Of a stretch of DNA of 64,000 nucleotides, positions 9,781 through 56,487 are shown in pieces. Source of the stretch: Nocardioides anomalus (GTDB lineage Bacteria; Actinomycetota; Actinomycetes; Propionibacteriales; Nocardioidaceae); contig NZ_CP049257.1 in the NCBI RefSeq assembly GCF_011046535.1, positions 3,472,001 through 3,536,000 of the forward strand, in the 5' to 3' direction. Below the pieces are notes generated by a model. The model saw only the letters and a list, made by a program, of their open reading frames with translations. It searched no databases and was not told the DNA's origin. Position 1 is the stretch's first letter. Every line of letters begins with the position of its first letter. The translations under genes and the position numbers were made by a program.

Positions 9781-10290
9781 ATGACCCAGCAGACCGAGCA
9801 GGGCACCGTCTGGCTCACCCAGGAGGCCTTCGACAAGCTCCAGGCCGAGCTCGAGGAGCTGAAGGGTCCGGTGCGCCAGGAGATCGTCAGCAAGATCAGC
9901 GCGGCCCGCGAGGAGGGCGACCTCAGCGAGAACGGCGGCTACCACGCCGCCCGCGAGGAGCAGGGCAAGAACGAGGGCCGGATCCGCCAGCTCGAATCCA
10001 TGCTCCAGCGCGCCGAGGTCGGCGAGACCCCCGCCGACGACGGCATCGTCGAACCCGGCATGAAGGTCACCTACAAGTTCGTCGGCGACTCCGACGACGA
10101 GGCCGAGACCTTCCTCCTCGGCGCCCGCGAGATGGAGGACGCCGAGAGCGGCCTCAAGGTCTACTCCCCGCAGTCCCCGCTCGGCCAGGCCATCAACGGC
10201 GCGGCCAAGGGCGACACGGTCAGCTACGAGGCCCCCAACGGCAAGACGCTCGAGGTCACCATCCTCGACGCGGTGCCCTTCACCGGCTGA
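9781..10290 (+). CDS. greA: Transcription elongation factor GreA
   Basis: A 169-residue GreA. It rescues backtracked RNA polymerase by stimulating transcript cleavage. The N-terminal coiled coil (WLTQEAFDKLQAELEELKG...) carries the acidic loop tip EEGDLSENGGYHAAREEQG, the diagnostic GreA motif. The C-terminal FKBP-like domain contains SPLGQAINGAAKGDTVSYEAPNG. The ATG at 9781 is preceded by AGGAG at 9768-9772, a good RBS. The neighbours DUF4307 and mca are the standard actinobacterial context. Immediately downstream (from 10306) begins the palindrome-bounded cassette. Confidence 0.95.
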   Translation: MTQQTEQGTVWLTQEAFDKLQAELEELKGPVRQEIVSKISAAREEGDLSENGGYHAAREEQGKNEGRIRQLESMLQRAEVGETPADDGIVEPGMKVTYKFVGDSDDEAETFLLGAREMEDAESGLKVYSPQSPLGQAINGAAKGDTVSYEAPNGKTLEVTILDAVPFTG

Positions 10291-10305
10291 GGCGTTGCGC
10301 CCGCA

Positions 10306-10341
10306 GCGTGAGTTTCACCGGCCGGCCGGTGAAACTCACGC
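10306..10341. repeat. Perfect 36-bp palindrome, left copy (REP-like)
   Basis: Bases 10306-10323 are the exact reverse complement of 10324-10341. The core, TTTCACCGGCCGGCCGGTGA plus flanking A/C bases, is shared with the palindrome at 11486-11519: 26 central bases (AGTTTCACC...GGTGAAACT) are identical in both, only the outer arms differ. It starts 15 bases after the greA stop and could also serve as its terminator stem, although no U-run follows. Confidence 0.85.
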
Positions 10342-10343
10342 TT

Positions 10344-10381
10344 GGAGTACGAAACTCCCGCCCGATCCGCCAGTTCCGTAC
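10344..10381. repeat. Companion repeat inside left boundary
   Basis: GGAGTACGAAACT (10344-10356) recurs in direct orientation at 11442-11454 at the other end of the cassette. GTACGAAACT (10347-10356) also forms a 9/10 inverted repeat with AGTTCCGTAC (10372-10381). Confidence 0.6.
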
Positions 10382-10388
10382 GCCACGG

Positions 10389-11396
10389 TCACGCCGCAGC
10401 GCGGTGCATCGCGCGTCCGATCCGAGCGGCGGTGGCCGCAGGGGTGTCCAGATCGGCCCACACGAACCGGATCATCCGCCAGCCGGTCAACTCGCGCAGC
10501 AAGTCCTCTCTCGCCTTCTCGCGCAACACCGCGTCGACGACGGTCTCTCCAAGACGCCGCGTGCGCGTGTACTTCCCGACGCCGTCGAACTCACCCAACA
10601 GCCCGTACGCCGGCCAAGCGAAGTCAGTGCGGCCGGCCAGGCGGCCGCTGGGGTGGAACACCTCGAACTGCAGGTCTGGCAGGGGCAGCCGTCGGTCGAC
10701 GCACAGGAGGCGGGTCCGCGACTCTCCGACGGACTCGCTGCGAGCGTCGCACAGGCGAACGGCCAACTGCAGGGGCAGTGAGCCCGGCCAATCGACCTTC
10801 CTGTCGAGACCGACACCGAGCTCGTGCCGCGTCACCAGGCCGCGGTTGAGATACCAGTCCAGGACACACACGCCTGCGTCCCGCCCGGCCAGACTCGCTG
10901 TGTCGAGAGCCGTTCGGAGCGGACTGGTCACCCAAAGGCCTTCGCTGCGGGTGAGGTCGCCAACGCGGCACTCGCCGCGGTGGTGGGTGACCCGAGCGGC
11001 ACGTCGCTCGCCGACCCCCGCCAGGTTGGTCACATGCGCATGGGACAGCTCCAGCCCCCACATCGGGCCGCCCTGGAGGACGCACGCACTCTGGTGGGAC
11101 GCGGCCACGGTGTTCCGGTACAGACGCAGAACGCCGGCGACGAGCATCCGGTGGCGCGTTGCCGGGTCAGCCGACGCCCACGACGAGCCGAGCACGTACA
11201 GACCCTGACGCAGCCGGACGATCGACCCGTCGCGTCGGGCGCGAGCGAGGTGGTTGTCGTTGAAGCCGACGGCGAGCGCATCACGCCGCAGGATGATTCC
11301 GAGCGGGTCGGCCACGTGTTCGAGCACCCATCGAGCGTCTGCGACCGTCGCGCCTGACACAGGCATCGCGGGCAGAGCGTGTGGACGAACGGCCAT
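10389..11396 (-). CDS. AbiEi-like winged-helix protein with C-terminal DUF559/VSR-like nuclease domain
   Basis: A 335-residue protein. The N-terminal part (~residues 25-95) has the AbiEi-type antitoxin/regulator look: a short helical DNA-binding segment and VRLRQGLYVLGS, then RTALDTASL in the middle. The C-terminal ~100 residues look like a PD-(D/E)xK fold of the DUF559/VSR group: GRTDFAWPAYGLLGEFDGVGKY provides the Asp and the E-x-D, and GWRMIRFVWADLDTP is the closing strand-helix. Such proteins occur in many copies in Nocardioides and relatives with no proven role. Third positions look visibly less GC-biased than in neighbouring genes, suggesting transfer. The gene lies between two matching palindromes. 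ATG at 11396, no clear RBS. The domain calls are pattern-based. Confidence 0.65.
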   Translation of the reverse strand: MAVRPHALPAMPVSGATVADARWVLEHVADPLGIILRRDALAVGFNDNHLARARRDGSIVRLRQGLYVLGSSWASADPATRHRMLVAGVLRLYRNTVAASHQSACVLQGGPMWGLELSHAHVTNLAGVGERRAARVTHHRGECRVGDLTRSEGLWVTSPLRTALDTASLAGRDAGVCVLDWYLNRGLVTRHELGVGLDRKVDWPGSLPLQLAVRLCDARSESVGESRTRLLCVDRRLPLPDLQFEVFHPSGRLAGRTDFAWPAYGLLGEFDGVGKYTRTRRLGETVVDAVLREKAREDLLRELTGWRMIRFVWADLDTPAATAARIGRAMHRAAA

Positions 11397-11441
11397 TGCG
11401 GCATGCCTGTGGGCGCTCCGTGGACGCAGAGATCTCCCCGG

Positions 11442-11454
11442 GGAGTACGAAACT
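11442..11454. repeat. Companion repeat inside right boundary
   Basis: GGAGTACGAAACT, an exact copy of 10344-10356 in the same orientation, 32 bases before the right palindrome. Confidence 0.6.
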
Positions 11455-11485
11455 GGAACTAGGCGTACGAACCATGCGGCCGGAA

Positions 11486-11519
11486 GTCCAGTTTCACCGG
11501 CCGGCCGGTGAAACTGGAC
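11486..11519. repeat. Perfect 34-bp palindrome, right copy (REP-like)
   Basis: Bases 11486-11502 are the exact reverse complement of 11503-11519. The central 26 bases equal those of the palindrome at 10306-10341. The two copies bracket the AbiEi/nuclease-like gene. Confidence 0.85.
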
Positions 11520-11545
11520 CGGCTCGAGACCCGGGGCGGCGGCGC

Positions 11546-11584
11546 GCGGAGGCGCTGATCGGCCGCTTCCGCGGGCGGGGCTAG
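11546..11584 (+). pseudogene. Inverted relic of an ilvA-type 3' end (ACT domain tail)
   Basis: Read on the plus strand, 11546-11584 encodes AEALIGRFRGRG followed by TAG. The minus-strand ilvA end (11614-11651) encodes AEALIARLRERG in the same codon phase. The two stretches match at 33 of 38 bases as an inverted repeat around the ilvA stop. No start or upstream ACT sequence survives. It is either the remaining tail of a second ilvA in the opposite direction, cut off where the cassette begins, or an inverted duplication that now works as a terminator stem. Confidence 0.5.
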
Positions 11585-11597
11585 CGGGTCGTCGAGG

Positions 11598-12815
11598 TCA
11601 CTCGATGACGCGGTAGCCGCGCTCGCGCAGGCGGGCGATCAGCGCCTCCGCGTGCTGCTGGCCGCGCGTCTCGAGCTGGACCTGGACCTCGACCTCGTCG
11701 AGGCTCAGGTCCGGGGAGATGCGCTCGTGGGCGACCTCGAGCACGTTGGCGCCGGCGGCGCCGATCTCCATGAGCAGGTTGGCGAGGCCACCGGGCGAGT
11801 CGGGGATGGTCACGTGCAGCCCGAGGTAGCGCCCGGCGGCGGCCATGCCGTGCTGGATGACCTTGCCGAGCAGGAGCGGGTCGATGTTGCCGCCGGAGAG
11901 CACGGCGACGACCGGCCCAGGGAAGTCGTGCGGGGCGTCGAGCAGCGCGGCCACGGCGGCGGCGCCGGCGGGCTCGACGACCATCTTGGCCCGCTCCACG
12001 AGGGCGAGCAGGGCGCGGGAGAGCGACTCCTCGGAGACGGTGCGGATCTCGTCGACGTGATCGCGGACCTCGGCGAACGGGACGTCGCCGGGCAGGCCGA
12101 CCGCGATGCCGTCGGCCATGGTCTTCATCGAGGGCAGCTGGACGGGGCGGCCCTGCGCGAGCGAGGTGGGGTACGCCGCGGCGCCGGCGGCCTGGACGCC
12201 GACGACGCGCACGTCGGGGCGGGCCTCCTTGACCGCGAGCGCGACGCCGGCCAGCAGCCCGCCGCCGCCGGTGGGGACGAGCAGGGTGGCGACGTCGGGC
12301 ACCTGCTCGAGGACCTCGAGGCCGAGCGTGCCCTGGCCGGCCACGATGTCCACGTGGTCGAACGGGTGGATGAGCACCGCGCCGGTCTCCGCGGAGAACG
12401 CCCGCGCCGCGGCCAGCGACTCCTCCAGCACCCGACCGGAGAACACCACCTCGGCGCCGTACGCCCGGGTCGCGCGCTCCTTGGGGATGGGCGCGCCCTC
12501 GGGCATGAAGACGGTGGACCTGATGCCGAGCATCTGCGCGGCGAGCGCGACGCCCTGGGCGTGGTTGCCGGCCGAGGCGGCGACGACGCCGCGGGCGCGC
12601 TCCTCGGGCGAGAGGCGGAAGAGCCGGGTGTAGGCGCCGCGGATCTTGAACGAGCCGCAGCGCTGGAGGTTCTCGCACTTGAGCCAGACCGGCGCGTCGA
12701 CCAGCGCCGAGAGCCAGCGCGAGAACTCCACCGGCGTCTCGATGGCCACGTCGCGGATCAGCTCGCGCGCGACCTCCACGTCGTGCAGGTGCACGCCGTC
12801 CATCAGGTCAGCCAC
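11598..12815 (-). CDS. ilvA: Threonine ammonia-lyase with C-terminal ACT domain
   Basis: A 405-residue PLP enzyme that deaminates threonine (and serine) to 2-oxobutyrate and ammonia. The PLP lysine is in CGSFKIRGAYTR (~residue 57), the phosphate loop is VPTGGGGLLAG, and SAGNHAQGVALAA is the substrate loop. The last ~80 residues (GLHVTIPDSPGGLANLLMEIG) form a single ACT domain, as in the short allosteric or catabolic type (about 400 residues). The GTG at 12815 overlaps the permease gene end by 8 bases; an internal ATG at 12803 is an alternative. It is last of a four-gene unit with metB first, linking Met/Cys and Thr/Ile metabolism through 2-oxobutyrate. Confidence 0.9.
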   Translation of the reverse strand: MADLMDGVHLHDVEVARELIRDVAIETPVEFSRWLSALVDAPVWLKCENLQRCGSFKIRGAYTRLFRLSPEERARGVVAASAGNHAQGVALAAQMLGIRSTVFMPEGAPIPKERATRAYGAEVVFSGRVLEESLAAARAFSAETGAVLIHPFDHVDIVAGQGTLGLEVLEQVPDVATLLVPTGGGGLLAGVALAVKEARPDVRVVGVQAAGAAAYPTSLAQGRPVQLPSMKTMADGIAVGLPGDVPFAEVRDHVDEIRTVSEESLSRALLALVERAKMVVEPAGAAAVAALLDAPHDFPGPVVAVLSGGNIDPLLLGKVIQHGMAAAGRYLGLHVTIPDSPGGLANLLMEIGAAGANVLEVAHERISPDLSLDEVEVQVQLETRGQQHAEALIARLRERGYRVIE

Positions 12816-56274: not shown

Positions 56275-56381
56275 CACCGAAGGGTGTCACTGCGCTGGTC
56301 GTGGGTCTCTCCTTGCCCGTCGCCGGTTCTTGCTTGTTGGAGTGATCAATTGCGTAGCGGCCGCGCGCTCACCAGCCCGAC

Positions 56382-56459
56382 TCCCGCTGTCAAGGACGCT
56401 ACGCGCCACTTCGTGGCGGACGGCGGCCTTCGGCGAGTGGTCCGTCCTTGACAGCGGGA
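56382..56459. repeat. Inverted repeat with 16-bp perfect arms
   Basis: TCCCGCTGTCAAGGAC (56382-56397) is the exact reverse complement of 56444-56459. The 46-base loop contains CGCCAC-TTC-GTGGCG (56404-56418), a second stem. Confidence 0.85.
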
Positions 56460-56487
56460 CCCGGTCGGGGCGGTAAGACGCGCTCAA

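Follow-up and report, generated by a model that had tools for sequence, protein, structure and literature searches.

Matching palindromes around an AbiEi-like nuclease gene in Nocardioides: a probable REPtron-like mobile element

The DNA considered here, which we call the window, is a stretch of 64,000 nucleotides from Nocardioides anomalus (assembly GCF_011046535.1, contig NZ_CP049257.1, positions 3,472,001 to 3,536,000 of the forward strand). Between greA and a threonine dehydratase gene, which we take to be ilvA, it holds a 1.2-kb cassette (window positions 10305-11519) with a single gene, for a predicted nuclease, and with a perfect palindrome and an inner repeat at either end. This cassette, its counterparts in other genomes and the short palindromic units that resemble its ends are our subject. 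The features of the locus are these:

10305..10342, no strand: outer palindrome P of the gene-downstream end; 19-bp arms, no loop; core found 14 times in the genome, this copy counted
10343..10384, forward strand: inner repeat of the gene-downstream end (TTGGAGTACGAAACT...AGTTCCGTACGCC); counterpart of the second hairpin in the dispersed units, going by the folding of those units
10389..11327, reverse strand: nuclease gene; 312 residues from GTG, or 335 if read from the ATG at 11396
10392..10733, reverse strand: predicted C-terminal endonuclease domain, residues 222-335 of the 335-residue reading; E225, D258, E269, D271, K275
10746..11327, reverse strand: AbiEi-like N-terminal part, winged helix and middle domain, to residue 217
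11380..11389, reverse strand: TTCGTCCACA, the window version of the TNTCCACAG motif, 57 nt before the GTG at 11327
11404..11417, reverse strand: AGCGCCCACAGGCA, a degenerate second copy of the motif, 28 nt further upstream than TTCGTCCACA
11442..11485, forward strand: inner repeat of the gene-upstream end (GGAGTACGAAACTGGAACTAGGCGTACGAACC...)
11486..11519, no strand: outer palindrome P of the gene-upstream end; 17-bp arms
9781..10290, forward strand: greA, left neighbour and insertion-site context; Pfam GreA domains
11598..12815, reverse strand: ilvA-type threonine dehydratase, right neighbour and insertion-site context; Pfam gives PALP, and the name ilvA is our assumption

A first-pass annotation of the window had reported two perfect palindromes, and both are real. 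The right one lies exactly where it was placed (11486-11519); the left one runs from 10305 to 10342 and not, as proposed, from 10306 to 10341. They do share 26 identical central bases, the longest block common to both being the 26-nt AGTTTCACCGGCCGGCCGGTGAAACT. A 13-base motif had also been put just inside both ends. The motif, GGAGTACGAAACT, is indeed at both (10344-10356 and 11442-11454), with the right copy stopping about 30 nt inside the right palindrome; since both copies read on the forward strand, they form a direct repeat and not a mirrored pair. The enclosed gene is less GC-biased than its surroundings, as had been noticed, with a GC content at third codon positions of 0.84 against 0.98 for greA and 0.99 for ilvA.

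The protein probably starts at the GTG at 11327, giving 312 residues and matching the length recorded for it in the database, and not at the ATG at 11396. Its N-terminal part matches Pfam AbiEi_4 (E 5.4e-07). The C-terminal domain is invisible to Pfam at E values up to 1, a search of NCBIfam with the protein gave no match, and a sequence search of the PDB with the profile gave nothing significant. The domain is clear in the predicted structure, where it resembles an endonuclease of the Vsr / I-Bth0305I type; the folds nearest to the predicted one are those of a homing endonuclease and of Vsr. The predicted catalytic residues are conserved in 77 of 78 homologues. We therefore describe the protein, from sequence for the first part and from a structural model for the second, as an AbiEi-like part fused to a putative Vsr / I-Bth0305I-type endonuclease domain, which agrees with the fusion of AbiEi to a PD-(D/E)xK-like nuclease suggested in the first-pass annotation. 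The HUH Y1 transposase domain (PF01797) was absent from the protein in the Pfam search.

The window cassette is one case of many. A homologue of the gene was found at E 1e-10 or better in 135 of 147 sampled genomes of the genus, and the gene family is widespread in the Actinomycetes: a cut-off of E 1e-20 finds members in 242 of 394 sampled genomes (a survey that scored at most five candidates per genome, so that matches per genome are lower bounds, and in which part of the members were checked for matching ends). The palindromes vary between homologues, yet mostly agree on the two sides of each gene. In a set of 72 Nocardioides loci, a block of at least 14 nt was common to the upstream and downstream flanks in 63, in none of 69 outer windows and in 13 of 300 mispaired flanks; a palindrome score of at least 10 was reached by 60 of the upstream and 54 of the downstream flanks and by none of 141 control windows. 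Part of the loci were picked by hand from the list of homologues in the genus and are thus not a random sample; flanks were counted by script throughout, and 40 were viewed by eye in part. A second, named set, the best 80 of 226 loci, overlaps the first. With two loci dropped for short flanks, it gave a shared block of at least 14 nt in 64 of 78, against 3 of 72 controls, one of which (L272; L numbers denote loci and G numbers genomes, G000 being the genome of the window) arises where the windows overlap on a short record. The palindromes are therefore tied to this gene family and not spread without regard to it.

The agreement reaches beyond the genus. Outside the taxonomic family of the host, 13 of 20 loci had a shared flank block (control 1 of 20). 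One other family contributed 7 such loci out of 8, and other genera of the same family 3 out of 4, both counts without a control run. Records from Kribbella, Jiangella, Aeromicrobium and Propionibacteriaceae have shared blocks of 13 to 49 nt, and among the loci beyond the genus some ends are simple inverted repeats, not perfect palindromes. A few homologues are without one recognisable end, such as L087 downstream and L108 upstream; the upstream end of L108 has seemingly been replaced by the end of another gene, presumably one resembling a transposase.

In a set of 78 loci, which also served for the site clusters and the upstream motif described below, the outer palindrome cores were matched in 60. 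Among 87 distinct cores, every one of the 12 pairs was seen in at least two Watson-Crick types, and 92% of core cells pair against 61% in column shuffles. Palindromic, matched cores were the ones selected, and their identity, their pairing and the 92% follow in part from that selection; the information lies in the variety of pair types, and the flank test on 72 loci is the fairer one. Core distance follows protein distance (Mantel r 0.44, reached in 0 of 2000 permutations).

The same 78 loci share a motif upstream of the gene. TCCACAG, often as TTATCCACAG or TTGTCCACAG, stands in sense orientation upstream in 61 of them and nowhere in their downstream, gene and outer windows. Its usual place is some 58 nt ahead of the start codon, and some loci have it 28 nt further up as well (about -86). 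The motif recurs in 59 of 80 named loci (outer windows 6 of 77) and in 14 of 20 loci from other families (outer windows 1 of 20). We take the TNTCCACAG motif to resemble a DnaA box.

A match to ilvA was found in 127 genomes, and among the 30 best ilvA loci the cassette is present in the genome of the window only. In 29 of the 29 relatives examined, greA and ilvA are convergent, 4 to 272 bp apart and cassette-free, so that the empty sites looked for exist and no relative carries the gene there without its palindromes. One of these cassette-free relatives (L163) has a palindrome dimer in the gap between the two genes. As a separate observation, another palindromic family (GAGCGGTG...CACCGCTC and close variants) occupies the same gap in L143-L146, L149, L150, L153, L155 and L159-L161. 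Across genomes, with homology demanded of both flanks, the 78 loci make up 37 site clusters, a number that rearranged neighbours could inflate.

Palindromes of the window type are dispersed in their own genome, a single 5.12-Mb contig that is 99.93% complete. Allowing up to two mismatches, the 24-nt core has 14 copies, two at the cassette and 12 at 11 other places; the reversed control pattern has none. At these 11 places a second hairpin (GGAGTACGAAACT...AGTTTCGTACTCC or close) adjoins the palindrome with both arms in six, with one arm in two and not at all in three. Six units and ends were folded as DNA, with z values of -3.7 to -11.3 against shuffles and no shuffle equally good. The hairpin beside most dispersed palindromes, together with this folding, makes the typical dispersed unit look like a single cassette end. 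A second cassette of the family is found in the same genome (G000:C1:514867-516058, L006), with a gene 42% identical and a different palindrome. That palindrome has seven further matches at up to two mismatches, three of which have the inner hairpin of the second cassette.

Where the variant can be read, the dispersed units carry that of the resident cassette, with exceptions to which we return. One loose pattern with a free centre was run on ten genomes, and its reversed control gave nothing in any of them; copies are listed for G090, G014, G096, G085 and G054 and none for the other five. Among the matches listed, 42 of 46 copies in G090 are exactly the variant of its cassette (two of them at the cassette), as are 10 of 16 in G014 (again two at the cassette) and all three in G096, cassette copies counted; in G085 it is seven of the 9 matches listed among 73 copies. 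G090 also has nine dimers among its listed matches, spaced exactly 62 nt, and a G090 dimer folds as DNA into one long hairpin.

Some units sit inside genes. Two of the copies in the window's own genome lie in reading frames, both in the same frame and encoding LGVRN...VSYSKREFHRPAGETH, in genes that from their protein sequences we take to be of the pabB type (L013) and hutF (L014). Among 30 hutF loci, five have a palindrome in the linker (those of the own genome, G090, G010, G032 and G056), with five different sequences, all in frame; of the remaining 25, inspection by eye showed none in 23, one runs into a contig end and one is ambiguous. The palindrome core is not in region L292 of G034, which was examined for a hutF palindrome. 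The pabB gene of G090 carries a unit just where that of the own genome does, and in both genomes the hutF and pabB units are the variant of the resident cassette. In hutF the units seem to take the place of part of a variable linker. The linker in hutF and pabB is either a repeated target or the seat of an old unit that has been rewritten. In-frame units are found in these two metabolic genes of several species at L013, L014, L164, L166, L167, L174, L175 and L330.

More ordinary explanations of the palindromes were considered and dropped. No terminator-like site lies in 10200-11700; matches to known RNA families are all far below gathering scores; and chance is excluded by the reversed-pattern count of zero and by the flank control windows. 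Elsewhere in the window, and with no link to the cassette, 56372-56398 and 56443-56469 form an inverted repeat whose arms, of 27 nt each, are 44 nt apart.

We think it probable, with real room for doubt, that 10305-11519 belongs, as one cassette, to a mobile element that spreads palindromes, similar to a REPtron and built on a nuclease like those of homing endonucleases. The first-pass annotation had been reminded of repetitive extragenic palindromic (REP) sequences around their REP-associated tyrosine transposases (RAYTs), with an unrelated nuclease in the transposase's place, and the matched ends in many genomes, the cognate dispersed copies and the empty sites lend this weight. We infer that the protein cuts the palindromes and spreads them. 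Each end of the cassette would be a unit made of the outer perfect palindrome P and an inner inverted repeat, and the single gene would supply the cognate enzyme of such units. The AbiEi-like part may bind the unit by analogy with AbiEi, which binds inverted repeats in its own promoter according to the portion of PMC3985639 that describes them. The Vsr/I-Bth0305I-type nuclease domain would then break DNA at the unit or at its target. The 62-nt dimers would suit an enzyme that acts as a dimer, recognises one or two units and cuts there or close by; I-Bth0305I, in the part of PMC3943268 that deals with its target, dimerises on nearly 60 bp. Repair of the break from another copy would, in a manner like homing, copy units or the whole cassette to new sites and homogenise units already there. 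In Nocardioides the outcome would be a population of short palindromic units, similar to REPINs and linked to a single nuclease gene.

A bolder form of this proposal, which we put forward tentatively as a possibility, is that these cassettes are a second, independently evolved class of REPtron, in which a homing-like nuclease with an AbiEi-type reader keeps and rewrites palindromic units across the genome, a population that homogenises itself by break repair and not by the chemistry of a transposase.

Several observations weigh against a mobile, palindrome-spreading element. The flank-block test was failed by 9 of 72 loci and the core-match test by 18 of 78. Agreement between related cassettes is in part common descent, which the Mantel r of 0.44 does not separate. 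The hutF units of G010, G032 and G056 match none of the cassettes inspected there (three, one and one, respectively), and that of G010 has only its central 16 nt in common with L095. G054 yielded a single copy, which differs from the variant of its cassette; the pattern used was unable to detect that cassette variant. In G057, the dispersed palindrome GTTTCACCGGCTAGCCGGTGAAAC (L049, L284) was expected to match a cassette of that genome; two of its three cassettes were inspected and neither matches. Finally, the window cassette, the only site inspected, has no visible target-site duplication.

The main rival to spread by break repair is transposition proper, in which the nuclease, alone or with a host partner, would excise or copy the cassette and the units and insert them in the manner of a DNA transposon. 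TnsA of Tn7 has the same nuclease fold and serves in a transposase. We judge this account unlikely, if worth keeping in sight: the cassette has no second catalytic subunit, the window site lacks a visible duplication, the predicted fold is nearest to homing endonuclease and Vsr, and the hutF units seem to replace part of the linker.

Far less probable is that the palindromes serve only to bind the AbiEi-like part, with the cassette regulating itself and a regulon and nothing moving. The presence of that part in the window protein speaks for it, as does the binding of AbiEi to inverted repeats in its promoter in the relevant part of PMC3985639. Such operators would hardly be looked for downstream of the gene, where a matching palindrome also stands, or in frame within coding sequence, and neither the empty sites in relatives nor the retention of catalytic residues in 77 of 78 homologues sits well with them.

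The name that the database gives the window protein, type IV AbiEi family antitoxin domain protein, and the match of PADLOC AbiEi models to it would suit either an antitoxin of the AbiEi type or a nuclease for restriction-like defence, with the palindromes as marks of self or structural repeats. We hold this to be very improbable, for the window gene has greA and ilvA directly beside it and no AbiEii toxin gene, and the matched ends, dispersed copies and in-frame units would be left unexplained.

Slightest of all is the chance that the palindromes are spread by some other transposase, with the nuclease gene a passenger caught between two copies: REPs elsewhere are tied to RAYTs in the part of PMC2817692 on their features, but one and the same gene family lies within all 60 cassettes whose matched palindromes differ in sequence, and Y1_Tnp has no match in the 99.93% complete own genome, whereas 5 of 14 control genomes were positive (other transposase families were not searched). 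A RAYT acting in trans is out on the same ground, there being no Y1_Tnp (RAYT/IS200) in the genome.

The closest known relatives in logic are the REP/RAYT systems (REPtrons, REPINs, TnpAREP). Among the RAYT features set out in the part of PMC2817692 concerned are a gene between two agreeing palindromic units and cognate units scattered through that gene's genome; a further likeness is the folding of paired units into one long hairpin. The enzyme differs, being AbiEi with a predicted Vsr/homing-type nuclease instead of an HUH Y1 tyrosine transposase. Further differences are that no constant GTAG tag could be spotted in the flanks (judged by eye only, not counted), that the 78 loci are spread over 37 site clusters and that the system is found in Actinomycetes. 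The EDxHD homing endonucleases (I-Bth0305I, from phage) share the catalytic fold, compared as a fold in the predicted structure; the DNA-binding part here is AbiEi-like, and the gene is bounded by palindromes in bacterial chromosomes and not set in a phage intron. The antitoxins of the AbiE type IV toxin-antitoxin systems are likewise AbiEi-like, whereas the window protein is fused to a nuclease domain and flanked by palindromes, and unlike an AbiE operon its gene has no AbiEii partner beside it. Miniature inverted-repeat transposable elements come to mind because the dimers of fixed spacing resemble cassettes without the gene; the ends here, though, are perfect palindromes, and we know of no DDE transposase parent for the palindromic units. 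CGTC-tagged REPs and the Rickettsia palindromic elements are also short palindromic units found in frame within genes, at least in the portion of PMC10969869 that bears on them; they belong to other phyla, no shared sequence has been shown, and here a cognate gene has been found. For the CGTC REPs, a large class of repeats, the relevant passages of PMC3733652 give no known transposase.

Our searches of open PubMed Central papers brought up no title or abstract that describes palindromes with this nuclease family; in the papers seen, the spread of short palindromes in bacteria, as treated in the part of PMC2817692 on RAYTs, is tied to HUH transposases. If the proposal is true, these cassettes would represent a second class of enzyme with the same genetic logic as RAYTs. 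It would account for the conserved yet scattered state of a very common gene that is now annotated as an antitoxin, and REPs of the CGTC type, which are without a known transposase, may depend on comparable nucleases.
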